Part shown: positions 23,242 to 47,459 of the stretch, piece by piece
How positions within the stretch are numbered: the first letter of the stretch is position 1
How the letters are laid out: the number at the start of each line of letters is the position of its first letter
Assembly: GCF_003148805.1 (NCBI RefSeq)
Contig: NZ_QGGX01000004.1
Coordinates: forward strand, 186,001-250,000
Origin: Aminobacter sp. AP02
GTDB taxonomy: Bacteria; Pseudomonadota; Alphaproteobacteria; Rhizobiales; Rhizobiaceae
Length of the DNA stretch: 64,000 bases
Direction: 5' to 3'
Translations under genes and position numbers: made by a program
Notes under the pieces: generated by a model
The model's database searches: none
What the model was told of the DNA's origin: nothing
Seen by the model: only the letters and a program-made list of their open reading frames with translations

Positions 23242-23313
23242 TTGATTGGATCAAGCTGTTGTAGAGGGAGCGGTCGGCGGTGCACCCGCTGGAACCGTAA
23301 TGGGAGGATAAAA

Positions 23314-24345: not shown

Positions 24346-24360
24346 GGTGCCAAGAGAATA

Positions 24361-24397
24361 CGGCGCGTGTCGGCCCGACATGCGCCGTTGTCTTTTC
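24361..24397 (+). terminator. Attenuating hairpin after the binding-protein gene
   Basis: CGGCGCGTGT (24361-24370) pairs with ACATGCGCCG (24378-24387) with one G-T pair, and TTGTCTTTTC follows. It lies between the binding-protein gene and the first permease. It also covers a GTG (24367) that could be taken as the permease start, which is why the later ATG is preferred. Confidence 0.65.
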
Positions 24398-24408
24398 ATC
24401 AGACCTCC

Positions 24409-25587: not shown

Positions 25588-26678
25588 GCGACCAATCGAC
25601 AACGATGGCCGAAGGCCGCTCGGCGCCGCGACGGCCCGCCCGCCGCAACGAAACCTTCAAGGCTTATTTCGGCACTCCCGGCAACACGGTGGTAACGCTG
25701 ATCTGCCTTGTCCTGCTCGGGCTCGCCGCCAAGGCGGCGGCTTCCTGGCTGCTGATCAATGCGGTGTTCGACGGAGCGCCCGAAGATTGCAAGGCAGCGT
25801 CGGGTGCCTGCTGGCCCTATGTCGCCGCCAAGCTGCGCTACATGCTGTTCGGCATATACCCCTTTGACGAGCAATGGCGGCCGCTGTCGGCAACCTTGTT
25901 GTTCATCGCAGCCATGGCCGTTTCAGGCATTCCACGCCTGTGGGGGCGATCCCTGATCGTCGCCTGGGCGGTGTTGCTGCCTGTCCTGTTCCTGCTGATG
26001 GCCGGTGGTGCGTTCGGATTGACCGAGGTTGCCACCTCGCAATGGGGCGGCCTGCCGCTGTCTTTCATGTTGACCTTCATCGGTCTCGTCTGCGCGCTGC
26101 CGCTGGGCATCCTGCTTGCGTTGGCGCGGCTGTCGAAACTGCCGGCCATCCGCATTCTTGCGGTCACCTTCATTGAACTGGTGCGCGGCGTTCCGCTCAT
26201 CAGCATCCTGTTCATGGCATCGGTGATGTTGCCGCTGTTCATGCCCGAAGGGGTGACCATCGACAAACTTCTGAGGGCACAGGTTGCCATCATCCTGTTT
26301 GCAGCGGCCTACATAGCCGAAATCGTGCGTGCGGGTCTGCAGGCCCTGCCTGCCGGACAGACCGAGGCTGCCAAGGCGCTGGGGCTGCACTACTGGCAAT
26401 GCACCTTCCTCATCACCGTCCCGCAGGCGCTGAAAACAGTCATCCCACCATTGGTGTCGCTGTTCATCGGCTTTTTCCAGGACACGACGCTGGTCACGAT
26501 CGTTGGCCTGCTGGACTTTCTGAACACCGTCCGCACGGCACTTCGCGATCCAAACTGGCAAGGCATCGCGGTGCTCGAAGGTTATGTATTCGCAGCCGTC
26601 GTCTACTTCGTGTTCAGCGCGCTCATGGGCGCGTACAGCCGCTTTCTCGAGAAACGATTCAGGGTAGGTCATGACTGA
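25584..26678 (+). CDS. Amino-acid ABC transporter permease (AapM-like)
   Basis: A 364-residue HisM/GlnP-family permease of the AapM/BztC subtype. It begins with GTG (GTGA overlap with the previous stop), giving V/MSDQSTTMAEG. Conserved segments are GLPLSFMLTFIGLVCALPLGILLALARLS, FIELVRGVPLISILFM, and the EAA loop LPAGQTEAAKALGLHYWQCTFLITVPQALKTVIPP. It normally works with AapQ, AapJ and an ATPase, AapP. No aapP homologue of this class follows; an amidohydrolase gene overlaps its 3' end. Confidence 0.9.
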   Translation: MSDQSTTMAEGRSAPRRPARRNETFKAYFGTPGNTVVTLICLVLLGLAAKAAASWLLINAVFDGAPEDCKAASGACWPYVAAKLRYMLFGIYPFDEQWRPLSATLLFIAAMAVSGIPRLWGRSLIVAWAVLLPVLFLLMAGGAFGLTEVATSQWGGLPLSFMLTFIGLVCALPLGILLALARLSKLPAIRILAVTFIELVRGVPLISILFMASVMLPLFMPEGVTIDKLLRAQVAIILFAAAYIAEIVRAGLQALPAGQTEAAKALGLHYWQCTFLITVPQALKTVIPPLVSLFIGFFQDTTLVTIVGLLDFLNTVRTALRDPNWQGIAVLEGYVFAAVVYFVFSALMGAYSRFLEKRFRVGHD

Positions 26679-28113
26679 AATCACGGTCATTCGCGACGTC
26701 GAAACCATTGTTGCCTATGACCCGGATGGCGACCGACAGGTCTACCTGCACGGAGGTGATGTCGCCTTCGACGAGACCGGGCTGATCTGTGTTGGCACAC
26801 GCTTTGAAGGGCAGGCAACGACCGAGCTGTCGGGCAAGGCGCGCATGGTGATGCCCGGCCTGATCGACATCCACTGCCACTCGCATGACGAACCGATGGC
26901 CAAGAGCATCTTCGAGGATGTTGGCACCGCCGCCCTCTGGGGCCAGGCCATGTATGAATATTCAGGCGTGATCGACGGCGGCGAGGATGCCCGCGCCGCT
27001 TGCCTCACCGTCATGCTGGGCGACCTGATGCGATCTGGCGCTACCACCATCCTCGACATTGCCGGCGCCAACGATATCTGGCTCGACATCGCCGCCCAAA
27101 GCGGTGCGCGGGCCTATCTCGCGCCCGGCTTCCGCCAGGCCGACTGGGTGGTCAGTGACAGCCACCGGCTCGATTTCGAATGGAACGACAAGGCAGGCCG
27201 CGATGCCTTTGCGCGTGCACTGGACTTCGCCGAGCGGGCGAGGGCGCATCCGAGCGGACGGCTTGACGGCGTCATCTCGCCATCACAGGTCGAGACCTGC
27301 CGGCCCGACCTTCTGGTCGATGCGGCCGAAGAGGCGCGCAACCGCAGCATGCTGATCACGGTCCACACCGCCCAGACCATGGCCGAGCATGAAGAGCTTC
27401 TGCGCCGCACCGGGCTGACGGGCGTGCAATATCTCGAGCAACTCGGGGTGCTCGGACCCGACGTCATACTGGGCCATTGCATCTTCGCCGACCACCACTC
27501 CTGGACCAGGCAACGAACGCGCAACGACCTCGTCACGCTCGCCGACCGCGGCACGACCGTTGCCCACTGCCCCGTTACCTTCGCGCGCAGCGGCATGGCG
27601 CTCGAAACCCTTGGCGCATACCGCCGCGCCGGCGTGAATGTCGCCATCGGCACCGACAGCTATCCGTTCAACATGCTCGAGGAGATGCGCCAGGCGCTGA
27701 TCTGCTCGCGGCTTGGCGGCAAGAGCGTCTTTGACATCAACACCGCCGACATTTTTGACGCCGCCACCCTTGCCGGCGCGAAGGCGCTCGGCCGCGACGA
27801 TATCGGCAGGCTGAGCGTTGGCGCCAAGGCCGACCTTTTGGTGATCGATCTCGACGCACCGACGATGCGCCCCGTCTACGACCCGCTGCGAAGCCTGCTT
27901 CATTGCGCCGCTGAGCGTGCCGTCGAGAGGGTCTATGTCGATGGACGGTTGACGGTGAATCAGGGCAAGCCGACGCAACTGGACTACGACGGGGCGGTGC
28001 GCGAAATGCAGGCCCTTCAAGACTGGGCCTGTTCTCGCGCCGGCACCTACGACCCACGAGGCCGCAACATCGACGAGTTGGCTCCGAAGTCGTTGCCGGT
28101 GCTCGAAAGGTGA
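26671..28113 (+). CDS. Amidohydrolase of the TrzN/AtzA/SsnA group with intact metal site
   Basis: A 480-residue amidohydrolase-superfamily enzyme. Metal ligands are H68 and H70 (PGLIDIHCHSHDE), a third His in ITVHTAQTM, a fourth in LGHCIFADHH, and the Asp in IGTDSYPFNM. The C-terminal ALGRDDIGRLSVGAKADLLVIDL closing segment is typical. Such enzymes deaminate or dechlorinate N-heterocycles or cleave cyclic amides. It overlaps the upstream permease by 8 bp, which places it in the importer operon and suggests it acts on the imported compound. Substrate unknown. Confidence 0.88.
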   Translation: MTEITVIRDVETIVAYDPDGDRQVYLHGGDVAFDETGLICVGTRFEGQATTELSGKARMVMPGLIDIHCHSHDEPMAKSIFEDVGTAALWGQAMYEYSGVIDGGEDARAACLTVMLGDLMRSGATTILDIAGANDIWLDIAAQSGARAYLAPGFRQADWVVSDSHRLDFEWNDKAGRDAFARALDFAERARAHPSGRLDGVISPSQVETCRPDLLVDAAEEARNRSMLITVHTAQTMAEHEELLRRTGLTGVQYLEQLGVLGPDVILGHCIFADHHSWTRQRTRNDLVTLADRGTTVAHCPVTFARSGMALETLGAYRRAGVNVAIGTDSYPFNMLEEMRQALICSRLGGKSVFDINTADIFDAATLAGAKALGRDDIGRLSVGAKADLLVIDLDAPTMRPVYDPLRSLLHCAAERAVERVYVDGRLTVNQGKPTQLDYDGAVREMQALQDWACSRAGTYDPRGRNIDELAPKSLPVLER

Positions 28114-28120
28114 GCGCCGT

Positions 28121-28158
28121 TCCGAGCTAGCCTTCAGGGCAGGATGGGATAGCTCGGA
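28121..28158. repeat. Inverted repeat between two converging amidohydrolase genes
   Basis: TCCGAGCTA (28121-28129) and TAGCTCGGA (28150-28158) form a perfect 9-bp pair spanning the gap and the last codons of the minus-strand gene. It could act as a weak bidirectional terminator; no T-run is present on either side. Confidence 0.4.
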
Positions 28159-29612
28159 GCAAAAATCGCGGACACCGGCGGGTGCTGCCAGCTTCTATCT
28201 GGGTATTTGGCGATCAGCCCCTCGAACTGCCGCTGCGCTTGCTCGCGCGCGGCCCGGATGTCAAAGCCGGCTAGATTCCCGTCGAGCATCGACAGTCGCC
28301 CGTCGACGAACACCGCTTGCGTGACCTTGCCCGATCCGCCAAGCACCAGCGTGGTGATCGGATCGACTGTCGGCGTCATGTAAGGATCGTCCAGGCGAAA
28401 CACTGCGACATCCGCCCTGGCTCCGGCTGCCAGACGCCCGATGTCGGAGCGACCCAGCGCCTTGGCTCCGCCCAGCGTCGCCGCGTCGAAGAAGTCTTTG
28501 CTCAGCGCCGCGTCCGAAGCCTTTTCGCTGATGCGACAGGCGACAAGCCCCATGAGCAGGTTCATCAGCATGTCGGGCGGTGACGTATCGGTCGCCATGC
28601 CGATGTTGATGCCTAGCTTCCTGCAGGAGGCGAAGGAGTTCAGCGTGCTGCCCATGCGCGCCGACACCAAGGGCGAATGCGCAATCGAGACGCCGGCGGC
28701 GGCATAGTGCTTCAAGTCTTCTGCCGAAGCATGGGTGCCGTGCGGCGTGATCAGCCGCTCGCTCAGCAGGCCGTGATCGGCCATCCAACGCGGGCCGGAA
28801 ACGCCGTGAAGCTTGTGCATCGTGTCAAGCTCGAGCTTGCCCTGGGCCATGTGCAGTCGCACCCGGCAGTCGAGGTCGCGCGCCGCATTCATCGTCCGCT
28901 GCAACACGTTGAGCGTGCAGGTCTCTACCCGGTCGGGTGCGAGCATGCCATTGACCAACCCGCCATGGCGGCCGTGCTGGCGTTCGATGAAGGCGATCGC
29001 GTCATCGAGCCCCGCGAGACCCCTTGCCTCATCAAAGTCGGGCACTATCTTGCCAGGCGCCTCCAGGACCATGCCGCCCGAGCGATAGGCCGGGCTGAGG
29101 AAGACACGCAGGCCGAGCTCACCGGCGGCATCTGCCGCCGCGTCGAACTCGGCGACCGTCTCGCCCCATTCACGGTAATAGAGCGAAGCGATGGGAGCCG
29201 CAGTGCTGACCCCATTCAGCAACGACAAGCCGAAGGCGAACTTCTTCTGGAAGGCTAGCTCTTCGGGGGAGTACATCTCATAGGGGCCGCGCTCGACATA
29301 GGAACGCGGCCAGATCCGGCCCTTGGCCCATCCGGGCTGGTTGTCGGTGACCAGCACATAGGTGTCGATGTCAGAGAGCGCGTCGAGGTCGACGAGGCCC
29401 GGGCTGATCAACGCGTTGCCGAAGTCGATGCGCCGGGCAACCTCACCGTCAAAGTGGCGTCCTGCAAAGATGATTTCGCCAGCCTGGATCACCAGTTCGC
29501 CGCGCGGCACCAGGCAGTGCCCCTCACCGTGATAGGCAAGCAGCCAGTCGGCGGTCATCAAGGTGCGGCCAGCCGGCCGTTGGCCGAGGGTCAGCTCTTC
29601 GGGACGTGTCAT
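28134..29612 (-). CDS. Atypical amidohydrolase lacking the HxH metal motif (paralogue 1)
   Basis: A 492-residue amidohydrolase-like protein. The barrel is recognisable from the N-terminal beta sandwich, PGLVDLDALSD, RLHMAQG, RLITPHGTH, MATDTSPPDML and the closing KALGRSDIGRLAAGARADVAVF. At the place of the usual HxH pair it has D77-A78-L79, while the later His, His and Asp ligands are retained. A close paralogue at 37250-38746 has the same change, so it is not an error. It follows the peptide-type binding-protein gene at 29729 in one unit. The enzyme may use a different metal geometry; activity cannot be predicted. Alternative: a non-catalytic or sensor protein. Confidence 0.82.
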   Translation of the reverse strand: MTRPEELTLGQRPAGRTLMTADWLLAYHGEGHCLVPRGELVIQAGEIIFAGRHFDGEVARRIDFGNALISPGLVDLDALSDIDTYVLVTDNQPGWAKGRIWPRSYVERGPYEMYSPEELAFQKKFAFGLSLLNGVSTAAPIASLYYREWGETVAEFDAAADAAGELGLRVFLSPAYRSGGMVLEAPGKIVPDFDEARGLAGLDDAIAFIERQHGRHGGLVNGMLAPDRVETCTLNVLQRTMNAARDLDCRVRLHMAQGKLELDTMHKLHGVSGPRWMADHGLLSERLITPHGTHASAEDLKHYAAAGVSIAHSPLVSARMGSTLNSFASCRKLGINIGMATDTSPPDMLMNLLMGLVACRISEKASDAALSKDFFDAATLGGAKALGRSDIGRLAAGARADVAVFRLDDPYMTPTVDPITTLVLGGSGKVTQAVFVDGRLSMLDGNLAGFDIRAAREQAQRQFEGLIAKYPDRSWQHPPVSAIFAPSYPILP

Positions 29613-29728: not shown

Positions 29729-31297
29729 TTAGTCGCCGGCCATCTGCGTCAGCCAGTGGCGCGGCTTGTTGTCGGAGCGGAAGTCGACGCTCTTGACCGT
29801 GCCCTGCATTGCCCAGGCAATCGGCTGCTGGTGCAGCGGGATCAGGATCGTGTCGTCCTTGGCGATCTTGAGGGCCGCTTCTTCGAGCTGCAGGCGCTTG
29901 GCGCTGTCAGGCTCCAGCACCGACTGGGCAACCAGCTTGTCCAACTCCGGATACGACCATCCGCCGTAGTTCGACACACCCACCTTGTCGTTCTTGGTGG
30001 AGAGCACCTGGGCCAGGATCGAATAGGCGTCGAGCGTAGGCTCGTTGGCCCAGCTCAGGTTGAACATGTCGGCCTTGCCCTGCGTGCGCTTGGGCGACTG
30101 GACGGCGCGCGGCGCAATGTCGATCGAGACGTCGAAGCCGGCGCGCTTCAGCATGTTGGCGATGCCGGCGCAGAAGTCCTCCTCGTTGATGCTCTCGTCG
30201 TTGGAGCACATATAGGTGAACTTCAGCCCTTCCTGGCCAGCCTCGGCGAGCAGCTTCTTGGCGCGTTCCGGATCGGCCTTGCCGTAGGTGTCGAGCGACT
30301 TGGCGTAGCCGGCGATCTCAGGAGCGATCAGCGAGCCGGACGGACGGGCCAGCCCGCGCATCACCTTGGCGTTGATCAGGTCACGGTCGATCGCAGCTTC
30401 CACCGCTTCACGAACACGCACGTCGTTGAACGGATTGGCGCGGCCGTCTTCCAGCTTTTCCTTGCGGTTGAAGCCCAGGAAGACCGTGCGGAACTCCTGC
30501 TTTTTCATGACCGACAGGCCCGGCGAACTTTCGAGGCGGGGCAGGTCCTGGATCGGAGCGGAATCGACCAGATCGACTTCACCCGACAAGAGCGCCGCGA
30601 CACGCGTCGCAGCCGAGGCGATCGGCATGTACTCGATGCGGTCGAGATTGTGCTTCTTTTCATCCCACCAGGCGTCGTTGACCAGCAGCACGGTCTTGCT
30701 GTCGGCCACGCGGCTCTCCAGCTTGAAGGGGCCAGTGCCGTTAGTGTTGTGGGTCGCATAGCCCTCGGTCTTGGTGTCGACGGCGGTCGGCTTTTCGGTG
30801 TTGTTGTCCTTCAGCCACTTGGCGCTGAACATGAAGATGTTGGTCATGTCATTGAGGAACAGCGATGTTGGCGCCGAGACCTCGACGTCGACGGTGTAGT
30901 CGTCGACCTTCTTGCTGCTGACGTAGAGCGGGATGTTGCCGCGCAGCGGCGAATCCGGGTCGGTGACGCGGTTGAGCGAGGCGATCACGTCGTCGGCAGT
31001 GAAGTCCGCGCCGTTGTGGAACTTGACGCCCTGCCGCAGGGTGAAGCGCCAGACCTTGTTGTCGATCAACTCCCACTTGGTCGCCAGAGCCGGCTCGACC
31101 TTGAAGTTCGCGTCGTAGCGGACCAGACCCTCATAGATGTGGTTGAGGAACGACAGGTTGAACGTCGATGCGATCGAGTCCGGATCGAGCGAATAGATGT
31201 CGGCCCGACCACCCCAACGCAGGGTTTCGGCACTGGCCGGAGCGGCGATGGCGATGGCGGCGACGGCACCGAGAATGAGTTTCTTAAAGCGAGACAT
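29729..31297 (-). CDS. Peptide-type ABC transporter substrate-binding protein
   Basis: A 522-residue SBP_bac_5 family protein with a signal peptide (MSRFKKLILG then AIAIAAPASA, cleaved near residue 24). Domain hallmarks are FTLRQGVKFHNGADFTADDV, GTGPFKLESRVADSK, VREAVEAAIDRDLI and the C-terminal DDTILIPLHQQP. The ATG at 31297 follows GGGAGGTAAA; an open frame continues to 31360 but covers the operator region. No permease or ATPase adjoins it. The complete permease and ATPase set with the same operator lies at 35297-41877, so this is its probable binding protein. Confidence 0.92.
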   Translation of the reverse strand: MSRFKKLILGAVAAIAIAAPASAETLRWGGRADIYSLDPDSIASTFNLSFLNHIYEGLVRYDANFKVEPALATKWELIDNKVWRFTLRQGVKFHNGADFTADDVIASLNRVTDPDSPLRGNIPLYVSSKKVDDYTVDVEVSAPTSLFLNDMTNIFMFSAKWLKDNNTEKPTAVDTKTEGYATHNTNGTGPFKLESRVADSKTVLLVNDAWWDEKKHNLDRIEYMPIASAATRVAALLSGEVDLVDSAPIQDLPRLESSPGLSVMKKQEFRTVFLGFNRKEKLEDGRANPFNDVRVREAVEAAIDRDLINAKVMRGLARPSGSLIAPEIAGYAKSLDTYGKADPERAKKLLAEAGQEGLKFTYMCSNDESINEEDFCAGIANMLKRAGFDVSIDIAPRAVQSPKRTQGKADMFNLSWANEPTLDAYSILAQVLSTKNDKVGVSNYGGWSYPELDKLVAQSVLEPDSAKRLQLEEAALKIAKDDTILIPLHQQPIAWAMQGTVKSVDFRSDNKPRHWLTQMAGD

Positions 31298-31349
31298 TTT
31301 ACCTCCCAGGATCATGCTTCCTGCCCGTACCATCGTAACGAATGCAAAG

Positions 31350-31373
31350 ATTGTCAACAATATTGTTGACGTA
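31350..31373. promoter_or_regulatory. Candidate GntR/FCD operator pair, site B
   Basis: Two abutting 12-mers, ATTGTCAACAAT (31350-31361) and ATTGTTGACGTA (31362-31373), contain a perfect 18-bp palindrome at 31353-31370. They lie in the divergent region between the peptide-type binding-protein gene (minus) and an amidohydrolase gene (plus), where one site can control both. Confidence 0.7.
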
Positions 31374-31489: not shown

Positions 31490-32965
31490 TTGACCGACAT
31501 GCTTTTGGTGCACGCAACGATCGTCACCGTCGATCCTGAAAGACGCATCATAGAAGACGGCGCAATTGCGATATCGGGCGACAGGATTGTCGACATTGGA
31601 TCGAGCGGCGATCTCCAGGCGAGGCACCAAGGCAAGAAGGTCTTGGATTGTCGCGGCAAGCTCGTCATTCCCGGGTTGATCGACGCACACGGTCATGCCG
31701 GGCACGTGCTTATCCGCAGCATCGCCGCGGATACCAACTCGATGTGGATGAAGATCGTCACCCCCACCTACCATCACTATACGACCCGCGACTACTGGTA
31801 TGCGGACGGACTCGTTTCGGGTCTCGAGCGCCTGCGCGCAGGCGTCACCACCGGCGTCAGCATCATCTCGTCGATGCCGAGAAGCGACGATCCGGTCTTT
31901 GCCAGCAATCACGCCAAGGCCTATGGCGAGATCGGCTTGAGGGAAATCATCTGCGTCGGACCCGCCGGGCTGCCATGGCCCCATGCGGTGACACGGTGGG
32001 AAACCGGAAGCCCGGTACGGCGGCACGTTTCGTTCGAAGAAATGATCGAGGGTGCCGAGGCGACGATCCAGGAACTGGACGGCAGCGCCGATGGCCGTAT
32101 CAAGGTATTCATCACGCCCTTCACCATCGTGCCATCGCTAGACCCGTCCAACATGTCATCGCCCGATCAGGCGGTTAAGCTCACCGACAATGATCGCATG
32201 CAGGCCCGCAGGGTCCGCGAAACGGCGCGCAAATGGGGCGTGCGCATCCACTCCGATGCCTTTGCCGGGCAGATCCGCATGGCTTTCCAGGACAAGGAAA
32301 ATGCGATCCTTGGCCCGGACGTGCACCTGCAGCATTGCTGGGGCATTTCACACCAGGAAATCGACATCCTGGCCGAGACCGGCACCTTCGTCACCCATGC
32401 CCCTCCCGGTCGTTCCACGCCCATTCTCAACATGATCGCCAGGGGCGTTCCGGTGGCAATCACCACCGACGGGGTGTCGCCAAGCCGCCATTTCGACATG
32501 TTCCAGACGGCGCGCCTGGCGCAGTACACCCAGCATCTGCTGGCAAATCACGACCGTTACCTGCTGCCTCCCGGCAAGCTTTTCGAGATGATCACTATCG
32601 ATGCAGCCAAGGCGCTCGGCATGGCGCATGAGATCGGTTCGCTGGAAGTTGGCAAGAAGGCGGACATCGCCATCATCAACATGCGCCAGCCGCACCTGAC
32701 GCCAAACTGGATGGTGATCCACCGGCTCGCGCATCAGGTGCTCGGCAGCGATGTAGAGACCGTCATCGTCGATGGCAAGATTTTGATGGAGGGCGGCAAG
32801 GTGCTGACTGCTGACGTCGAGCAGGCGCTCGATTTCGGCGAGCGCGAGGCCCAGGCTCTGGTCGAACGGGCGGGCCTTCAAGCACATATGCACAACCCGG
32901 GATGGGGGCAGCTCTACCGTACTTTCGAGGAGCCCGTAGTTCCGCCGGCGCCTCCAGCAGTCTGA
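31490..32965 (+). CDS. Amidohydrolase of the TrzN/AtzA group with intact metal site
   Basis: A 491-residue amidohydrolase-superfamily enzyme. The metal ligands are H67 and H69 (PGLIDAHGHAGH), His in RIHSDAFAGQ, His in LQHCWGIS, and Asp in ITTDGVSPSRHFD. The closing region KALGMAHEIGSLEVGKKADIAIINM is typical. The start ATG has GGAGG in front (TTGGAGGAAAAGACTTG, with an alternative TTG at 31490 by frame; the ATG at 31499 is three codons later). Transcribed away from site B and followed by a strong terminator. Substrate unknown; hydrolytic deamination or amide cleavage on a ring compound is the family expectation. Confidence 0.88.
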   Translation: MTDMLLVHATIVTVDPERRIIEDGAIAISGDRIVDIGSSGDLQARHQGKKVLDCRGKLVIPGLIDAHGHAGHVLIRSIAADTNSMWMKIVTPTYHHYTTRDYWYADGLVSGLERLRAGVTTGVSIISSMPRSDDPVFASNHAKAYGEIGLREIICVGPAGLPWPHAVTRWETGSPVRRHVSFEEMIEGAEATIQELDGSADGRIKVFITPFTIVPSLDPSNMSSPDQAVKLTDNDRMQARRVRETARKWGVRIHSDAFAGQIRMAFQDKENAILGPDVHLQHCWGISHQEIDILAETGTFVTHAPPGRSTPILNMIARGVPVAITTDGVSPSRHFDMFQTARLAQYTQHLLANHDRYLLPPGKLFEMITIDAAKALGMAHEIGSLEVGKKADIAIINMRQPHLTPNWMVIHRLAHQVLGSDVETVIVDGKILMEGGKVLTADVEQALDFGEREAQALVERAGLQAHMHNPGWGQLYRTFEEPVVPPAPPAV

Positions 32966-33069: not shown

Positions 33070-33819
33070 TCAGCCGTTCATTGCCAGACGCTGTGGCGCA
33101 AGGCTGCCAGCATTACCCGCTTGTTTCTGGCGGGGATAATTGTAGGCGTTGACCTTGGAGGTGGAGTAGCCAGCGCCGACGAGGGCCTCGGCGATCTTGA
33201 GCGCGGCCGTTACGCCATCGATCACAGGAACGCCGGTCGCTTGGGCGAGCCGCTCGCACAGGCTCGACATTCCAGCGCAGCCCAGGATGATGGCTTCCGC
33301 GCGATCTTCGATCTTGGAGCGTTCGATCACGTCGATCAGCAGCCGTTCGGCGGTTTCGGGATCCTCCTCAAGGCCGAGCACCGGCAGGTCGATCGCATGA
33401 ACGGCGCGGCAATGATGTCCGGCACCATAGGCCTGGACGATGTCTTCGATGATCGGAACCGATCGCGGCAACGTGGTAACGACCGAAAAGCGGCGGCTGA
33501 TCGTCATCGCAACCTGGACTGCGGCCTGGCAGATTCCGATGACTGGCCCTTTGGCCATCTCGCGCGCCGCATGCAGTCCTGGGTCATCGAAGCAGGCAAT
33601 CACATAGGCATCGACGCCCAGCTCTTCGCCCTTCTTTATCTCGGACAACATGTCCGGAACCGCCACCGCCTCGTCTACACTGCCTTCGATGCTGACAGGC
33701 GACCTCGTCGGATTCACTGCGCTAACATGCGTTCCCGCACTGGCCACGCGGAGCGCGCTCTCCAGCACCTGATTGGTCATGGAAACAGTCGAATTTGGAT
33801 TGATCAGACGAATATGCAC
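33070..33819 (-). CDS. Aspartate/glutamate/hydantoin racemase family protein (HyuA-like)
   Basis: A 249-residue member of the Asp/Glu/hydantoin racemase superfamily. It starts MHIRLINPNSTVSMT, and the paired catalytic cysteines are C76 (IACFDDPG) and C181 (LGCAGM). From memory, these are the same positions as in the characterised Sinorhizobium meliloti hydantoin racemase. Racemisation of a 5-substituted hydantoin or a related ureide (for example allantoin) is the family expectation. It lies 11 bp downstream of a flavin reductase-like gene on the same strand. Confidence 0.85.
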   Translation of the reverse strand: MHIRLINPNSTVSMTNQVLESALRVASAGTHVSAVNPTRSPVSIEGSVDEAVAVPDMLSEIKKGEELGVDAYVIACFDDPGLHAAREMAKGPVIGICQAAVQVAMTISRRFSVVTTLPRSVPIIEDIVQAYGAGHHCRAVHAIDLPVLGLEEDPETAERLLIDVIERSKIEDRAEAIILGCAGMSSLCERLAQATGVPVIDGVTAALKIAEALVGAGYSTSKVNAYNYPRQKQAGNAGSLAPQRLAMNG

Positions 33820-33830
33820 GTTGGTTAATC

Positions 33831-34466
33831 CTATTCGCCGCTCTCGCTGGCCTTCAAGACGTCCGCGATCGCAGGTGCCTTGAGCACGAACTGGCGATCG
33901 GATGTGATGTAATTGTCCGCATGCAGCCGCGCGATCGGCTGGTAGACTTCCGGATTGACGTAGCGTCCAGCCTCATCGAGGCAGTCTCGGCGGACATGCA
34001 TGTGGACGACTTCTCCGAGCACGAGCACACGGCGTGGGAACTCGATCAGCCGCTCGACCCGGCACTCAAAGGAGCAAGGCGCGCTGGTGATGTAGTCGAC
34101 ATCGATCTGGGTGCCCTTGGCTGTCGGCAGCCCGGCCATTTCGAGTTCATCGACGCCGCTGTCGAAGCCAAGTCCGCAGACAAGCATCTGCTGTGACAGC
34201 GCCATGTCGACCATCGCAACCGTAAACTCTCCGGTACGTCTGATGTTTGCGACCGTGTCTTTTTCCTCCCCCGACAGGCGAGGCTGGATGCCAAGCACCA
34301 CGATGGGCGGCTCGTGCGAAAAGACGTTGAAGAAACTCATTGGCGCGGCATTGCTGCGCCCGCTGGGCGAGCGGGTGGTAACGAGTGCGATCGGCCGCGG
34401 ACCAATGAAATTGGTAAGCAGGCGATAGCGGCTGTCCATCTCCAGCTTTGTAAAATCGAACTCCAT
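33831..34466 (-). CDS. Flavin reductase-like domain protein (FMN-binding split barrel)
   Basis: A 211-residue member of the flavin reductase-like family (DIM6/NTAB type). Seen are RYRLLTNFIGPRPIALVTTRSP, the SNAAPMSFFNVFS segment and PPIVVLGI, which form the flavin pocket. Start: the ATG at 34466 has GAGAGG close upstream; an in-frame ATG at 34499 would place 11 extra residues over the operator region. No flavin monooxygenase lies in the island, so it either serves an oxygenase encoded elsewhere or acts alone as an FMN oxidoreductase. Confidence 0.85.
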   Translation of the reverse strand: MEFDFTKLEMDSRYRLLTNFIGPRPIALVTTRSPSGRSNAAPMSFFNVFSHEPPIVVLGIQPRLSGEEKDTVANIRRTGEFTVAMVDMALSQQMLVCGLGFDSGVDELEMAGLPTAKGTQIDVDYITSAPCSFECRVERLIEFPRRVLVLGEVVHMHVRRDCLDEAGRYVNPEVYQPIARLHADNYITSDRQFVLKAPAIADVLKASESGE

Positions 34467-34510
34467 TCGGCCTCTCAGTCCTGCTTCATTGGTACACAAT
34501 TTGATAGATA

Positions 34511-34601: not shown

Positions 34602-35279
34602 ATGACCGAGCAAGCAAGCGTTTCGACCCAGCAGATTGTCGAAAAAGTATGGCTTTCGATTGCTGAACGACGACTGCGTCCTGGCGTCCAGCTGAAGGAG
34701 GGTCAACTGGCGGCGATTTTCGACGTCAGCCGGGCTCGAATCCGCCAGGCACTCACCGCGCTGGAACGCGAAGGGCTGGTAACCATCATCCCAAATCGTG
34801 GCGCTTTTGTCTGCCATCCCTCTGTTGACGAGGCCAGGGACGTATTCGCCGTGCGACGCTCCGTCGAAGCCTGCGTCGTCGAACGGATCGGCACCTCGAT
34901 CACCAAGGCCGACGTTACGCGGCTGCGCAACCACGTCGCCCAGGAACGCATCGCCAGCGCCAAGGACATCACCACCGACATCATCAAGCTGTCGGGTGGC
35001 TTTCATCTTCTGCTGGCCGAGATCTCCGGCTCCGATTTCTTGTTTGGGATGATGCGCGACCTGATTTCGCGCACCTCGCTGATTACCGCCGTCTACCGCA
35101 ACACGGCCCGCTTCAACTGCGGCCCTGACGAGCACGACGAAATCGTCGAGGAGATTGCCAAGGGCAATTTCAAGAGAGCGGCAGCACTGATGGAACATCA
35201 TCTCGAGCACGTCGAAACGGAGCTCGACCTGAGGGAAGTGCGCGACATCTCCCACGACTTGCGGGCCGCACTGGCGTAG
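34602..35279 (+). CDS. GntR-family regulator with FCD ligand domain
   Basis: A 225-residue FadR-subfamily regulator. Residues 8-75 form the winged helix (QQIVEKVWLSIAERRLRPG, RARIRQALTALEREGLV, IIPNRGAFVC). Residues 80-215 form the all-helical FCD domain, with His ligands in GGFHLLL, DEHDEIV and MEHHLEHV that normally hold a metal and an acidic ligand. Such proteins bind ATTGTnnACAAT-like palindromes, and four such sites flank transcription units of this island, including its own promoter. It is therefore the likely repressor, relieved by a pathway intermediate. Confidence 0.9.
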   Translation: MTEQASVSTQQIVEKVWLSIAERRLRPGVQLKEGQLAAIFDVSRARIRQALTALEREGLVTIIPNRGAFVCHPSVDEARDVFAVRRSVEACVVERIGTSITKADVTRLRNHVAQERIASAKDITTDIIKLSGGFHLLLAEISGSDFLFGMMRDLISRTSLITAVYRNTARFNCGPDEHDEIVEEIAKGNFKRAAALMEHHLEHVETELDLREVRDISHDLRAALA

Positions 35280-35296: not shown

Positions 35297-36277
35297 TCAT
35301 GCGTCTTGCACCAGATGGCAGGCCACGCGCGTTCCGCTGGCGAGCGTGCGCACTGCGGGAAGCTCGCGTGCGCACTGGGCCGTCGCCATCGGGCAACGCG
35401 GATGGAAGGTGCAGCCGGATGGCGGCTTGAGCGGGCTCGGCACCTCGCCTGCGGCCACTACCCGGTCCCGGTGAGGCTTTTCAATGTTCGGGATCGTCTG
35501 CAACAGCATCTGCGTATAGGGATGCCGCGGCTTGGCGAACAGCTCCTCGGTCTCGCCTTCCTCGACGATGCGCCCGAGATACATCACCGCGATGCGGTCC
35601 GACATGTGGCGTACAACGCTCATGTCGTGGCTGATGAACAGGTAGGTCAGCCCGAACTCATCCTGCAGGCGACGCATCAGGTTGAGCACTTGCGCCTGCA
35701 CCGACACGTCGAGTGCCGAGGTCGGCTCGTCGCAGACCAGGAAGCGCGGCTCGCTGGCGAGAGCGCGGGCGATCGAAATGCGCTGGCGCTGGCCGCCTGA
35801 AAATTCATGCGGGAACTTGTCGCCATCGGAGGCCGATAGTCCGACGGTCTTCAACAGTTCCGCCACGCGCTCGTCGATCTCCGCCGCGGTATTCCTGAGC
35901 TTCAGCTCGCGGATCGGCTCGGCGATGATGTTCTTCACCCGCCAGCGTGGGTTAAGCGAGGCGTAGGGGTCCTGGAAGATCATCTGGGCCGACAGCGGCT
36001 TGCCGTCTTCGCCAGGCGCAAAGCGCATCTCGCCACTGTTTGCCCGGTACAACCCGGTCACCAGGCGCGCGACGGTCGACTTGCCGCAACCACTTTCGCC
36101 GACGAGGCTGAGACAACCGCCGAGCGGCACCTCGAAACTGATGTCGTTGACGGCCTGCAGATATTGCCGCGGCTTGCGCTCGACCACGCGGTTGAGCCAC
36201 GGGGCCGAAACGTCGAACGTCTTGACGAGCCCGTCGACGCTGAGCGCCGAGGTCTTGTGTGCAGTCATCGCGGTCAT
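35297..36277 (-). CDS. Peptide ABC transporter ATPase, DppF/OppF type
   Basis: A 326-residue ATPase. Walker A GESGCGKST, signature FSGGQRQRISIARAL, Walker B FLVCDEPTSALD and the C-terminal oligopeptide element HPYTQMLL, followed by cysteine-containing CTFHPRCPMATAQC. The last element is typical of DppF and its relatives. The ATG at 36277 follows AGGAGGAACCGC and overlaps the upstream stop by four bases. Last gene of the long minus-strand operon from 41877. Confidence 0.92.
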   Translation of the reverse strand: MTAMTAHKTSALSVDGLVKTFDVSAPWLNRVVERKPRQYLQAVNDISFEVPLGGCLSLVGESGCGKSTVARLVTGLYRANSGEMRFAPGEDGKPLSAQMIFQDPYASLNPRWRVKNIIAEPIRELKLRNTAAEIDERVAELLKTVGLSASDGDKFPHEFSGGQRQRISIARALASEPRFLVCDEPTSALDVSVQAQVLNLMRRLQDEFGLTYLFISHDMSVVRHMSDRIAVMYLGRIVEEGETEELFAKPRHPYTQMLLQTIPNIEKPHRDRVVAAGEVPSPLKPPSGCTFHPRCPMATAQCARELPAVRTLASGTRVACHLVQDA

Positions 36278-37257
36278 GCGGTTCCTCCTGCATTGATCCA
36301 GCACGCACTAGCTCCCGCACCCGCCGGCGTCAGGCTCGGCCGGTCGCGCGAACAGCGCGGTCCGGCGTCCCTGCAGCGCGGATTGAAGGCGCAACCGTTT
36401 GGAATGGCATCGAGCCTCGGCATCGAGCCGTCGATCTGGTTGAGCCGCTCGACACGCGCACCAAGTGCGGGGATCGAAGCCATCAGCCCGCGCGTATAGG
36501 GATGCTTTGGCGCATGCAGCACCTCGGCGACAGGCCCGATCTCGACGAGGCGGCCTGCATACATTACCGCGATGCGGTCGGCGGTTTCGGCGATGACGCC
36601 CATGTCGTGGGTCACCAGCATCACCGCCGTCTGCTTCTCCTTGCACAGTTTGCGCAATAACGAGGTGATCTGCGCCTGGATCGACACGTCGAGCGCCGTA
36701 GTCGGTTCGTCGGCTATGATCAGCTTCGGCGATGCGGCCAGTGCCAGCGCGATGACCACGCGCTGACGCATGCCGCCGGAAAACTGGTGCGGGTACTGGT
36801 TGAAGCGGTCTTCCGGCGATGGAATGCCGACATCCTTGAGCAGCGAAATCGCCCGCGCCCTGGCTTCCGCCCGGCCCATGTCGAGATGCTGCCGGATGGT
36901 CTCGGTGAGTTGCGCGCCAACCGTGAACAGCGGGTTGAGCGAGGTCAGCGGGTCCTGGAAAATCGCGCCGATCTCGCGGCCGCGGATCGTCTCCATCTCG
37001 CGGTCGCTAAGCTGGTCGATGCGACGATCACCGAGCCAGATCTCGCCATCGGCGATGCGGCCCGGCCGCTCGAGCAGGCCCTGGATCGCCAGCCCCGTCA
37101 TCGACTTGCCGGCACCGGATTCGCCGACCACGCCCAGGATCTCGCCAGGGCGGATCGACAGGCTCACTTCGGAAAGAGCGGTCGCCACCCCGCGGCGGCC
37201 AGGGAACTCGACCTTGAGGTTACGTACTTCAAGCACTGCCTTCTCGGTGTCAGCCAT
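36274..37257 (-). CDS. Peptide ABC transporter ATPase, DppD/OppD type
   Basis: A 327-residue ATPase with Walker A GESGAGKSM, Q-loop IFQDPLTSLNP, signature FSGGMRQRVVIALAL, Walker B LIIADEPTTALD and the terminal element HPYTRGLM, then CAFNPRCRDAGPRC. It pairs with the DppF-type ATPase. The start overlaps the end of the upstream amidohydrolase gene by 8 bp, which shows the transporter and enzyme genes are translated as one set. Confidence 0.93.
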   Translation of the reverse strand: MADTEKAVLEVRNLKVEFPGRRGVATALSEVSLSIRPGEILGVVGESGAGKSMTGLAIQGLLERPGRIADGEIWLGDRRIDQLSDREMETIRGREIGAIFQDPLTSLNPLFTVGAQLTETIRQHLDMGRAEARARAISLLKDVGIPSPEDRFNQYPHQFSGGMRQRVVIALALAASPKLIIADEPTTALDVSIQAQITSLLRKLCKEKQTAVMLVTHDMGVIAETADRIAVMYAGRLVEIGPVAEVLHAPKHPYTRGLMASIPALGARVERLNQIDGSMPRLDAIPNGCAFNPRCRDAGPRCSRDRPSLTPAGAGASACWINAGGTA

Positions 37258-38746
37258 TATCGTTGACCTCTATCGGGTAGCTGGGCGGGAAGATCTCCGA
37301 AACCGGCGGGTTGGCCCAGCTGCGTTCCGGATACTTGGCGATGAGACCGTCGAACTGGCGCTGGGCCTGCTGGCGTGCCGCCTTCATGTCGATGCCGGCA
37401 ACCTCGCCGAAGCGCATCGACAGACGCCCGTCGACGAACACGGCCTGCGTTACCTTGCCCGAGCCGCCTGTCACCAGCGTGGTGATCGGATCGATGGATG
37501 GCGCCATGACCGCGTCATCCACGCCGAACACTGCAATGTCGGCACGCGCGCCTGGAACAAGCTTGCCCAGGTCGTCGCGGCCAAGCGCCTTGGCGCCGCC
37601 AAGCGTTGCGGCATCGAACAGGTCGGCGCTGCGGACACGATCAGGGGCACCGTCGTTGATGCGGCAGGCGATCAGGCCAACGAGCAGGTTCATAAGCATG
37701 TCGGCAGGTGTCGTGTCGGTGCCCATCGCGATGTTGATGCCGCGCGCCTTGCACTTCGAGAACGAGTTGAGCGTGCTGCCACCACGTGCCGAGACCAGCG
37801 GGCAATGCACGATCGACACGCCGTTGTCGGCATAGAGCCCGAGGTCTTCGTCGGTGGCGTTGGTGGCGTGCGGGGCGATCAGCCGCTCGTTGAGCAGGCC
37901 GGCACGCGCCAGCCACACGGGCGCGGTCGTGCCATGCAGCTTGCGGACGGTTTCGACCTCCATCGAGCCCTGCGCCATGTGCAGGCGGATCTTGCAGCCA
38001 AGCTCTTCAGCCGCAGCCTGGGTCTGGCGCAGAAGCTCTTCCGTGCAGGTCTCGACGCGATCAGGCACCAGCATGCCACGCACCAGGTCGCCATGACGGC
38101 CGGTCTGACGGCCGATATAGTCGACCGCGTCGCGCAGGCCGGCGAGGCCGCGCGCCTCATTGAACACGGCCTCCATCCGACCCGGCGCCTCAAGCACCAT
38201 GCCACCGGCGCGATAGGCCGGGCTGAGGTAGACACGTAGGCCGAGATCGCCGGCCGCGTCGGCTGCCGCGTCGAACTCGGCGACCGTCTCGCCCCACTCA
38301 CGATAAAACAGCGAGGCGATGGGGGCTGCGGTGGTGATGCCGTTCAAAAGGAGCTGGCCGAAGGCAAAGCGCTTCTGGAAGGCAAGCTCTTCTTGCGAAT
38401 ACATCTCGTAGGGACCGGCCTCGACATAGTGGCGCGGCCATACGCGGCCCTTGGCCCAGCCCGGGTGATGGTCGATGCCCAAAATGGTGGTGTCGAGATC
38501 CGACAGCGCGTCGAGGTCGATGAGGCCAGGGCTGACGAGTGCGGCGCCGAAATCGATGCGGCGAGCGACCTCACCGGTGAAATCGGTGCCGACATAGACA
38601 ACCTCGCCGCCCTCGACGACGACCTGGCCATTGGGGATCAGCCGGTGGCTGCCATCGCGGTGTCCGAGCACCCAGGCGGCTGTGATCAGCGTACGCCCAT
38701 CGGGGCGCTTGCCGAGTTCAAGTGTTTCGAGAACCTGCCTGGTCAT
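37250..38746 (-). CDS. Atypical amidohydrolase lacking the HxH metal motif (paralogue 2)
   Basis: A 498-residue close paralogue of the 28134-29612 product; by eye well over half of the residues are the same. Here the HxH site reads D79-A80-L81 (PGLIDLDALSD). The later ligands remain: RLHMAQG, RLIAPHATN and MGTDTTPADML. Strongly conserved between the two are YREWGETVAEFDAAADAAG and PGWAKGR-WPR-YVE, so these may form the altered active site. It lies between the deaminase and ATPase genes, overlapping both. Function unknown; it may be a hydrolase with altered metal use. Confidence 0.82.
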   Translation of the reverse strand: MTRQVLETLELGKRPDGRTLITAAWVLGHRDGSHRLIPNGQVVVEGGEVVYVGTDFTGEVARRIDFGAALVSPGLIDLDALSDLDTTILGIDHHPGWAKGRVWPRHYVEAGPYEMYSQEELAFQKRFAFGQLLLNGITTAAPIASLFYREWGETVAEFDAAADAAGDLGLRVYLSPAYRAGGMVLEAPGRMEAVFNEARGLAGLRDAVDYIGRQTGRHGDLVRGMLVPDRVETCTEELLRQTQAAAEELGCKIRLHMAQGSMEVETVRKLHGTTAPVWLARAGLLNERLIAPHATNATDEDLGLYADNGVSIVHCPLVSARGGSTLNSFSKCKARGINIAMGTDTTPADMLMNLLVGLIACRINDGAPDRVRSADLFDAATLGGAKALGRDDLGKLVPGARADIAVFGVDDAVMAPSIDPITTLVTGGSGKVTQAVFVDGRLSMRFGEVAGIDMKAARQQAQRQFDGLIAKYPERSWANPPVSEIFPPSYPIEVNDNG

Positions 38747-39936
38747 GGCATTTCCACCGTAGCCTGGCCGTTGCGCGCGGTGACGCGGCCGCCCTTGACG
38801 ACCAGCGGACGTGGCGCGACATCGACTACCGCATGGGCAAGCGTCTCGCCTGTCAGCAGCGTCAGATCGGCCTTGCAGCCTTCCGCGATGCCGTAGCCCT
38901 CGAGACGCATGACATCGGCGCCGCCCTGCGAGACCATGTGCAGCAGATGCGCCAGCTCGATATCCGAACGCAGGCCGTTCTTCATGCCGACGATCTTGGC
39001 GCGGTCGAGCATGTCTGGCTGGCCCCAGGGGCCCCAGGTGTCGCGGATGCCGTCGCAGCCGGCGCCGACGCGCACGCCTGCCTGCTTGAGGCGCATGATC
39101 GACGGTACCGTTGCCGACGGCGCTCCCGTCGTCAGGATCGCAACGTCCAGTTCGGCGATCTGCTCGATGAGTTGGCCGACGCGCAGATAATCGTTCATGC
39201 CGAGCGCAAAGGCGTGGCTGATGGCAACCTTGCCCTGCATGCCGTTGGCGCGGATGCGCTCGAACATCAGTTCCATGGTGAAGGCGCCGAGATCGCCCGC
39301 CTCATGCAGGTGGATGTCGATAGGGCACTGGTGCTTAAGAGCCAGCGCAAAGATGGCGTCCAACTGGCCCTTGGGGTCGCGGTCGATGCCGCAAGGATCG
39401 ATACCGCCGAGAACCTCGCAGCCCTGGCCTAGCGCCTCGTCGAGCAATTCCAGCGTGCCGGGCATGACCATGACGCCCGACTGCGGGAAGGCGACGATCT
39501 CGATGTCGATGATGCCCTTGAGCTTTTCGCGCGTCTCCATCACGCCTTCGACGATCAACAGGCCATGCGTCGGGTCGATGTCGACATGGCTGCGGATATG
39601 GGTGGCGCCATGCGCGGCAAGGCCGATGGCGTGCCGCATCGACTGGCGATGCGGGTCGATGCCAATCTCGATGCGGTTCTCGCGCTCGAAGTCGATGCGC
39701 TCGCGCAGCACGGCGCGGCGATTGTTTTCGTGCCAGGGCATGCCCCAGGTTGTCTTGTCCAGGTGGGTATGCGCGTCGATCAGGCCGGGAACGGCGATCG
39801 CGCCCTTGCCGTCCTCGACAGGCATGCCGGGGTCCGCCTCGAAGCGGCCGACACCGACGATCCGTCCGTTGCGGATCAGCAGGTCGGAGTTCGCGCCGCC
39901 ATAGGGACGAACATTGCGCAGCAACAGACTAGTCAT
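38743..39936 (-). CDS. Cytosine deaminase/AtzC-like amidohydrolase
   Basis: A 397-residue enzyme of the CodA/AtzC group. It has the metal motif H56-T-H58 in PGLIDAHTHLDKT, the second site IDIHLHEAG, ISHAFALG and the Asp in GAGCDGIRDTWGPWG. The HTHLDK and DGIRDxWxPxG sequences are hallmarks of cytosine deaminase-like enzymes that act on pyrimidines, isocytosine or triazine derivatives. It overlaps the atypical amidohydrolase gene by four bases and follows the permease genes. A ring deaminase step on the imported compound is likely. Confidence 0.88.
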   Translation of the reverse strand: MTSLLLRNVRPYGGANSDLLIRNGRIVGVGRFEADPGMPVEDGKGAIAVPGLIDAHTHLDKTTWGMPWHENNRRAVLRERIDFERENRIEIGIDPHRQSMRHAIGLAAHGATHIRSHVDIDPTHGLLIVEGVMETREKLKGIIDIEIVAFPQSGVMVMPGTLELLDEALGQGCEVLGGIDPCGIDRDPKGQLDAIFALALKHQCPIDIHLHEAGDLGAFTMELMFERIRANGMQGKVAISHAFALGMNDYLRVGQLIEQIAELDVAILTTGAPSATVPSIMRLKQAGVRVGAGCDGIRDTWGPWGQPDMLDRAKIVGMKNGLRSDIELAHLLHMVSQGGADVMRLEGYGIAEGCKADLTLLTGETLAHAVVDVAPRPLVVKGGRVTARNGQATVEMP

Positions 39937-39940
39937 GCAC

Positions 39941-40891
39941 TTACCTCAGTTTCGGATTAAGCACGTCACGCAGCCAGTCGCCGAGGATGTTGACGACGAC
40001 GACGAGCAGGCAGAGCTGGATCACCGGGAACAGCACGATCCACCACGAGCCGGAAAACAGGAACTGGTTGCCGATGCGGATCAGCGTTCCGAGCGAAGGC
40101 TGGTCGGGCGGCATGCCGATGCCCAGGAACGACAAGGTCGCCTCTGTCAGGATCGCCATGCCGAAGTTCAGCGTGGCGGCGACCAGCACCGGCGTCAGCG
40201 TGTTAGGCAGAATGTGATAGGCCAGGATACGGCGCGGCGGCACCTTGAGCAGCCTTGCCGCCTGCACATATTCCTTGTTGCGCTCGACGATTGTCTGGGC
40301 GCGCACCGTGCGGGCATATTGCACCCACGCCGACAGCGAGATCGCCAGCACAAGCACGGCCGCAGCACCAATCTCACGCAGGTTGTCCGGCAGCAATTGC
40401 CGCGCAACGGTCGACACCAGGATGGCGATCAGGATTGTCGGGATCGACAGGGTGATGTCGCCGAAGCGCATCAGGAGATTGTCGGCGAAGCCGCCGAAGA
40501 AGCCGGCACACAGGCCTGCGGTCATGCCGATCAGCAACGACAGCGCCACCGAGCCGAGGCCGATGAAAATGGAGATGCGCGTGCCGTAGAGGATGGCCGA
40601 AAGCATGTCGCGGCCTTGCGTGTCGGTGCCGAGCAGGTAGGGCCATTCGCCCGTCGGCTCCCAGATCGGCGGCAGCTCGGCCTTCCACATGTCGAGCTGG
40701 GCCGCATCGTAGGGGTTCTGCGGCGCGATCAGCGGTGCGAACACCGCAGCAAGCACCAGGATGGCCAGCACAAGGGCAGCGATCATCGCCGACTTGCTGT
40801 GGGTGAAGGACCACCAGACATCGCTGTTGCGGATGCGTTTCAGCATGGTGGGACGCGCCACGGCGCCCGGTTTGGTAACGTCGGTTGTCAT
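39941..40891 (-). CDS. Peptide ABC transporter permease, DppC type
   Basis: A 316-residue DppC/OppC permease. It has the N-terminal span after WWSFTHSKSAM, the LLGTDTQGRDMLSAILYGTR motif and the EAA loop EYVQAARLLKVPPRRILAYHILPN. Ends with VNILGDWLRDVLNPKLR, the usual C-terminus (GDxLRDxLDP). 4 bp separate it from the deaminase gene and 17 bp from the DppB-type permease. Confidence 0.93.
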   Translation of the reverse strand: MTTDVTKPGAVARPTMLKRIRNSDVWWSFTHSKSAMIAALVLAILVLAAVFAPLIAPQNPYDAAQLDMWKAELPPIWEPTGEWPYLLGTDTQGRDMLSAILYGTRISIFIGLGSVALSLLIGMTAGLCAGFFGGFADNLLMRFGDITLSIPTILIAILVSTVARQLLPDNLREIGAAAVLVLAISLSAWVQYARTVRAQTIVERNKEYVQAARLLKVPPRRILAYHILPNTLTPVLVAATLNFGMAILTEATLSFLGIGMPPDQPSLGTLIRIGNQFLFSGSWWIVLFPVIQLCLLVVVVNILGDWLRDVLNPKLR

Positions 40892-40908
40892 CGACTAGCC
40901 TCCCGCTG

Positions 40909-41877
40909 TCAGTGCGAGCTACGCAGGCGCGGATCGATCACCGCATAGGTGATGTCGACCAGCGTGTTCAGCGCGACGAAGATGAATGAAATGATGCAGA
41001 GATAGGCGGCCATGACAGGGATATCGAGGAAGGTCACCGCCTGGATGAACAGCATGCCCATTCCAGGCCACTGGAAGACTGTCTCCGTGATCAGCGCAAA
41101 TGCGATCAGCGAACCGATGTTCATCGCTGTCATGGTGACGACCGGCATCAGGCAGTTGCGCAGAGCATGGCGGAAATAGATGCGCCAGCGCGGAATGCCT
41201 CGGGCCCGGGCGAATTTCACAAAATCGGAACGCAGCACTTCGAGCATCTCGGCGCGCACGAGGCGCATGATCAGCGTGATCTGGTAGAGCGACAGTGCGA
41301 TGGCTGGAAGGATCAACGCCGCACGTCCCGAAGGCGTGAGCAGGCCCGTCGACCACCAGCCGACCTGTACCACCTCACCGCGACCGAAGGACGGCGACCA
41401 ACCTAGAATGACCGAAAACACCAAGATGAGCAGGATGCCGACGACGAAACTTGGAAGCGAAACGCCGATGATCGACAGGAACTGCAGCGTTTCGGTGTAC
41501 CATCGCCCTCGCTTGATTGCGGTGAGCACGCCGAGAGGCAGGCCGGCGAACAACGAGATCAAGGTCGCCACCAGCACCAGTTCAAGCGTCGCTGGGAAGC
41601 GTTCGCCGATCAGCGTCAGCACGTCCTGGCCGTTTCGGTAGGAAATGCCGAAATCGCCCCGCGCCGCATTGCCGACAAAGTGCACGAACTGCGTGACGAC
41701 ACTGTCATTGAGACCCAGCCGCTCACGCAGGGCGTCACGGTCGGCCTGCGTCGTCTGCTCGGTGACCATGAGTTCGACTGGGTCGCCGGCAAGGCGAAAG
41801 ATCAGGAAAGCGAGCATGGCAACCGCGAGCATGACCATGACGGCATTGCCAATGCGGCTGATAATGAAAACCAGCAT
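40909..41877 (-). CDS. Peptide ABC transporter permease, DppB type
   Basis: A 322-residue DppB/OppB permease starting MLVFIISRIGNAVMVM. The family segments are GDFGISYRNGQDVLTLIGERFPATLEL, the EAA loop LRSDFVKFARARGIPRWRIYFRHALRN and VFQWPGMGMLFIQAV. First confirmed gene of the six-gene minus-strand operon. Its promoter region holds operator site D, and a short open frame with a strong ribosome site comes between. Confidence 0.93.
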   Translation of the reverse strand: MLVFIISRIGNAVMVMLAVAMLAFLIFRLAGDPVELMVTEQTTQADRDALRERLGLNDSVVTQFVHFVGNAARGDFGISYRNGQDVLTLIGERFPATLELVLVATLISLFAGLPLGVLTAIKRGRWYTETLQFLSIIGVSLPSFVVGILLILVFSVILGWSPSFGRGEVVQVGWWSTGLLTPSGRAALILPAIALSLYQITLIMRLVRAEMLEVLRSDFVKFARARGIPRWRIYFRHALRNCLMPVVTMTAMNIGSLIAFALITETVFQWPGMGMLFIQAVTFLDIPVMAAYLCIISFIFVALNTLVDITYAVIDPRLRSSH

Positions 41878-44478: not shown

Positions 44479-44505
44479 ACGCTAGACAGCTTACGTTGGC
44501 AGCGC

Positions 44506-44517
44506 AAACCATGGTTT
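44506..44517. promoter_or_regulatory. Palindrome in the torT-torS gap
   Basis: AAACCATGGTTT is a perfect 12-bp palindrome in the 47-bp gap between divergent torT and torS, followed by a second AACCATG that contains the torS start codon. It could be an operator for both genes. It does not resemble the E. coli TorR box. Confidence 0.35.
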
Positions 44518-44525
44518 AATGAACC

Positions 44526-47453: not shown

Positions 47454-47459
47454 TTTCCG

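Follow-up and report, generated by a model that had tools for sequence, protein, structure and literature searches.

Amidohydrolases of the ATZ/TRZ type, among them the SAH/MTA deaminases, AtzA, TrzN and 8-oxoguanine/isocytosine deaminase, have an HxH pair on strand 1, together with a His at strand 5, a His at strand 6 and an Asp at strand 8. The alpha-metal histidines, that is the HxH pair, hold the metal in the relatives of known structure, and the solved deaminase structure 4f0r is described as zinc-bound. A strand-1 site of another kind is found in the Glu-x-Ala/Glu-x-His decarboxylases, in which the first position is acidic: the ligands of Mn in LigW are Glu19, His188 and Asp314, and those of the metal in 2,3-DHBD are Glu8, His167 and Asp293 (PMC7894528, PMC8187880).

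The window analysed here, a stretch of 64,000 nucleotides from Aminobacter sp. AP02, contains two amidohydrolase-fold proteins in which the HxH pair has been replaced by D-A-L. DAL1 (28134..29612, minus strand; 492 aa, ATG start) carries the change at D77-A78-L79, encoded by GAC GCG CTC at 29376..29384; its residues 75-81 read D-L-D-A-L-S-D (GAC CTC GAC GCG CTC TCT GAC). The paralogue DAL2 (37250..38746, minus strand; 498 aa, 68% identical to DAL1) has the same three residues at positions 79-81, with partly different codons (38504-38512). The stretch formed by DAL1 residues 71-83 is PGLVDLDALSDID, and its equivalent in the HxH neighbour encoded at 26671 is PGLIDIHCHSHDE. When these two proteins are aligned, D-A-L stands opposite the H-C-H of PGLIDIHCH, and in the alignment with the sequence of 4f0r PGLINLHGH stands opposite PGfiDlDal; both therefore agree with the sequence-only reading, which had placed the lost first-strand HxH at residues 77-79. 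That reading had also judged a sequencing error unlikely from the presence of the same change in the paralogue, and to this can now be added its conservation throughout the clade. The true pair does not lie elsewhere in the chain: a search for the H-x-H string through the whole of DAL1 and DAL2 found none, and the string is absent from 51 of 53 members of the DAL clade, the other two having it in the N-terminal region, off strand 1. The ligands retained in DAL1 are His254 (after strand 5), His291 (after strand 6) and Asp342 (after strand 8).

The AF2 model of the DAL1 barrel (pLDDT 92.9, pTM 0.93) places residues 77, 227, 254, 291 and 342 just after strands 1, 4, 5, 6 and 8, respectively. Foldseek matched it to AtzA, TrzN and 4f0r with probability 1.00 and TM of 0.73-0.78, the ATZ/TRZ-type deaminases and chlorohydrolases being the closest solved folds. 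From the strand positions we infer that Asp77, Arg252 and Asp227 lie close to the retained ligands.

In terms of family, both proteins belong to NCBIfam NF004801 (PRK06151.1, "chlorohydrolase family protein"), which DAL1 matches with 711.1 bits and DAL2 with 760.4 against a cut-off of 416, and the Pfam matches of the DAL proteins are restricted to PF01979 (3e-23) and PF07969. The H-C-H neighbour at 26671 reaches 338 bits, under the cut-off. The pattern used for scanning contigs contained DLDA and was hence biased towards the motif; the motif-independent evidence is a search with the NF004801 profile over whole genomes of the order, phylum and class, which yielded a graded set. Among the matches to NF004801, the DAL clade forms the core with high scores. 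All members above 600 bits that were read have D-A-L, save for N-A-L in one genus and D-A-V in a second, and those at about 530 bits and lower have HxH, with the exception of one D-A-L copy (L147, a truncated gene) and an H-C-I protein. In maximum-likelihood trees D-A-L arises by a single change with support of 100/100 and is not scattered among the HxH proteins; it is a single-origin trait of a conserved clade.

The H-C-I protein (L149, 407 bits) is placed as sister to the DAL clade with support of 100/99, a placement on a long branch that rests on few members (L149, L171 and L172; matches at 1501-2928). Both groups are set apart from the HxH proteins by Arg252, Asp83, Asp90 and the residues W149, E151 and E155 of an inserted loop, and both have a residue other than His at position 79. 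Unlike the DAL proteins, the H-C-I clade retains the first His, does not have Asp227 and is found in other gene surroundings; in L176 and L177 a substrate-binding protein of a different type was seen nearby. Judged from these residues, the H-C-I clade appears to be an evolutionary intermediate.

The conservation of individual positions was counted over 134 DAL-type rows, in which some genes are present twice. Position 77 is Asp in 131 rows and Asn in 3 (one genus), position 78 is Ala in all of them, and position 79 is Leu in 132 and Val in 2. The HxH pair is kept in all 57 HxH-type relatives. The earlier statement that the later His, His and Asp ligands persist holds for the whole clade, since His254 and His291 (28740..28742, minus strand) are invariant in 134/134 rows and Asp342 (28587..28589, minus strand) in all 133 that could be read at that position. 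Equally invariant are several clade-specific polar residues near the ends of the barrel strands (D83, R147, E151, D227, R228 and R252; 134/134), with the reservation that the co-changes fall on one or two branches of the tree and that row counts are not counts of independent events. Arg252, which precedes the strand-5 metal His by two positions (Arg252 and His254 together, 28851..28859, minus strand), occurs in all 134 DAL-type rows and all 3 H-C-I rows but in none of the 57 HxH rows. Asp227, after strand 4 (28932..28934, minus strand), is a candidate new ligand of metal or substrate: it is present in all DAL-type rows and in 0/3 H-C-I rows, and in the HxH relatives the position is mostly Ser, Ala, Gly, His or Met, with Asp outside the five commonest residues. 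The loop after strand 2 (residues 140-156; 29145..29195, minus strand) carries Y146, R147, W149, E151 and E155 in the pattern YRxWxExxxE; W149 and E151 are common to the DAL and H-C-I clades and missing from nearly all HxH relatives. Arg252, Asp227 and this loop, together with the H-C-I sister clade and the conserved operon described below, go beyond what the sequence-only reading had noticed.

The loss of the motif, taken by itself, would be compatible with decaying copies or with a sequencing error. Such an explanation is extremely improbable, given that D-A-L is conserved in many genera, that the frames are intact and that dN/dS against orthologues lies at 0.06-0.09 (0.059-0.068 for DAL1, 0.086 for DAL2); because of this conservation, these ratios, the confident barrel model and the operon context, we conclude that the DAL genes are not decaying. 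In-frame stops suspected in L030 and L032 turned out to be just the natural terminal stop. A second explanation follows the annotation and regards the DAL proteins as ordinary ATZ/TRZ hydrolases, active in deamination or dechlorination, that tolerate the change. They do exceed the cut-off of the "chlorohydrolase family protein" model, and the copy from Marinovum is annotated as "cytosine deaminase". However, the names derived from NF004801 do not track the type of active site, because the model passes D-A-L proteins and HVH proteins (L016 and L039, about 530 bits) alike; both alpha-metal histidines are gone, and the literature searched contained no characterised member. Thus, this second explanation is very unlikely.

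The DAL genes lie in a transport cluster. The gene order around DAL2 is OppB, OppC, a PRK05985-type amidohydrolase, DAL2, OppD and OppF, and DAL2 overlaps both of its neighbours (stop/start) within this transporter operon. The OppC- and OppB-type permeases (39941..41877, minus strand) were assigned from their place in the operon and from how the orthologous operon is annotated; the OppD- and OppF-type ATPases occupy 35297..37257 (minus strand), and the PRK05985-type amidohydrolase, with an intact HTH motif and a stop/start overlap with DAL2, 38743..39936 (minus strand). A substrate-binding protein (SBP_bac_5; 29729..31360, minus strand) is encoded directly upstream of DAL1. The cluster also contains an Asp/Glu/hydantoin racemase-family protein and a flavin-reductase-like protein (33070..34499, minus strand), a GntR/FCD regulator (34602..35279, plus strand) and a second intact (H-G-H) amidohydrolase of the ATZ/TRZ type (31490..32965, plus strand; start codon provisional). 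The flavin reductase, the racemase and the second amidohydrolase pointed to no known pathway. On the other side of DAL1 adjoins its H-C-H relative (26671..28113, plus strand), present in some close relatives only. This H-C-H protein has Gln instead of the HxxE glutamate, and it adjoins a gene set for an amino-acid-type ABC transporter (23242-26678), a linkage kept in close relatives only. Elsewhere in the window, a molybdopterin oxidoreductase with a C-terminal BFD-like [2Fe-2S] domain (20355-23027) is probably an assimilatory nitrate reductase, and the region 43390-48194, with a hybrid kinase bearing a TorS sensor domain (44526-47453), a periplasmic-binding-type protein and a response regulator, looks TorTSR-like.

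The operon recurs in Mesorhizobium, Aminobacter, Sinorhizobium, Rhizobium, Agrobacterium, Brucella/Ochrobactrum, Devosia, Paracoccus and others, where it includes the GntR, flavin-reductase-like and racemase-family genes and often the H-G-H amidohydrolase of the ATZ type. It is conserved over Rhizobiales and Rhodobacterales, forms a single compact operon in Marinovum, and is kept in part in more distant proteobacteria, whose DAL proteins are 40-55% identical. Two DAL genes were found in 18 loci, within the stretch fetched for each locus. Two loci labelled Bacillus subtilis SK6B4 (L064 and L105) contain typical rhizobial DAL clusters and probably represent alphaproteobacterial contamination or a mislabelled assembly.

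The closest association is that with the PRK05985 gene, which is directly adjacent to DAL on the same strand in 80/89 loci, often with overlapping stop and start codons; it is absent or apart in the remaining nine (L064, L113, L117, L130, L132-L135 and L180). In two of these nine a different, distantly related amidohydrolase adjoins DAL (10903 in L133 and 10866 in L132), 24-28% identical to the H-C-H or DAL proteins. The PRK05985 neighbour retains its H/H/H/D metal ligands in 79/79 complete copies, and DAL is uniformly changed; the pair thus consists of one amidohydrolase with the standard site and one in which it is consistently missing. This adjacency, the frequent overlaps and the full metal set of the neighbour speak for DAL as a pseudoenzyme, a chain without catalysis that would serve the PRK05985-type protein, or another enzyme of the cluster, in a structural or regulatory role, and there is a precedent in the inactive dihydroorotase-like chain required for the ATCase activity of P. 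aeruginosa (PMC7053772). Nevertheless, the nine loci carry DAL without an adjacent PRK05985 gene, and the old ligands and the new clade-specific polar residues are invariant in 134/134 rows, a pattern in which interface and catalysis are indistinguishable here. A pseudoenzyme is, on balance, rather unlikely.

Since neither the old ligands nor the new polar residues at the ends of the strands vary, a metal-dependent enzyme is the most likely solution. The explanation that we prefer, with about as much to be said for it as against it, is that DAL would work as a catabolic enzyme of the import pathway and would hold its metal, probably still a single one, in a rebuilt site. In the simplest order suggested by the tree, the second His would have been lost first, at the step that brought in Arg252 and the WxE loop, and His77 would then have changed to Asp with the gain of Asp227. 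Strong selection preserved the strand-5 His, the strand-6 His and the strand-8 Asp throughout. Two layouts of the site may be considered. A single divalent metal could sit on Asp77, His254 and Asp342, as in the Glu-x-Ala decarboxylases, or the metal could have moved to the beta position, on Asp227, His254 and His291. The beta-position site is slightly favoured, because Asp227 is strictly invariant and Asp77 is replaced by Asn in one genus, which counts against Asp77 as an essential ligand. Arg252 might occupy the position left empty or bind a carboxylate of the substrate; its co-change with His79 falls on a single branch and carries no independent statistical weight.

The same arginine is also an argument for an enzyme working without metal, in which Arg252 with Asp77 or Asp75 would replace the charge of the metal and His and Asp residues would carry out acid-base catalysis. 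Arg252 came in exactly where the second metal His disappeared (every DAL and H-C-I row has it, and 0/57 HxH relatives do), Asn77 is tolerated in one genus, and the superfamily has recognised metal-independent members (PMC12017989). However, none of His254, His291 and Asp342 varies, seemingly more conservation than such a site needs, and a metal-free enzyme is unlikely.

According to the preferred explanation of a rebuilt metal site, the DAL proteins would act, beside the intact PRK05985-type amidohydrolase, on a compound imported by the Opp-type transporter of their own operon, in a reaction that is not necessarily a hydrolysis. The type of transporter and the racemase and amidohydrolase neighbours suggest, no more, that the substrate is a nitrogen-containing small molecule. 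For cyclic amides and imines, the substrates proposed in the sequence-only reading, the only support is general knowledge of the family. The sequence-only reading had offered a different metal site, another reaction or a protein that is not an enzyme; the list was the right one, its three entries standing as candidates, and outright decay is unlikely. A bolder version is put forward tentatively, with the balance somewhat against it: the lineage may have left the canonical alpha-metal site through an H-C-I-like state, for a beta-site metal (Asp227/His254/His291) or a metal-free Arg252 site, and may catalyse a reaction undescribed for the ATZ/TRZ lineage, as part of a catabolic operon widespread among alphaproteobacteria that live in soil or with plants.

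The DAL subfamily was already known by sequence through NF004801, and the name "chlorohydrolase" is unsupported, as is the label "cytosine deaminase" on DAL genes. Searches of the literature on the family and the operon gave no characterised member, and they gave no mention that HxH is uniformly lost, that this loss arose once, that an H-C-I clade exists or that other residues changed along with it (most subscription journals lay outside the scope of the searches). The three-state series HxH, HxI and DxL on one tree illustrates how the superfamily can dismantle a metal site and keep the rest; together with the co-changed arginine and loop, it allows each change to be tested separately for its order and its effect. 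Besides, the results point to a widespread uncharacterised catabolic operon.

Compared with known systems, DAL1 and DAL2 are members of NF004801 by score, a model that itself mixes site types. With LigW, 2,3-DHBD and gamma-resorcylate decarboxylase they have in common an acidic first position in the strand-1 pair, a His and the strand-8 Asp; the residue is Asp in DAL and Glu in those decarboxylases, and Pfam detected no sequence membership, so that the likeness is one of layout only. A possible parallel is the dihydroorotase-like pDHO, an inactive subunit of the ATCase of Pseudomonas, which is likewise an amidohydrolase-fold chain and works with another enzyme, a partner role that is possible for DAL; it belongs to another subfamily, however, and the remaining ligands of DAL are invariant. 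With the ATZ/TRZ-type amidohydrolases the DAL proteins share the fold, the strand-5 His, the strand-6 His and the strand-8 Asp. Where many ATZ/TRZ members have Glu, DAL has Gln257, as do most of the close HxH relatives, whereas the absence of the strand-1 HxH and the clade-specific Asp227, Arg252 and loop 140-156 set the DAL proteins apart.
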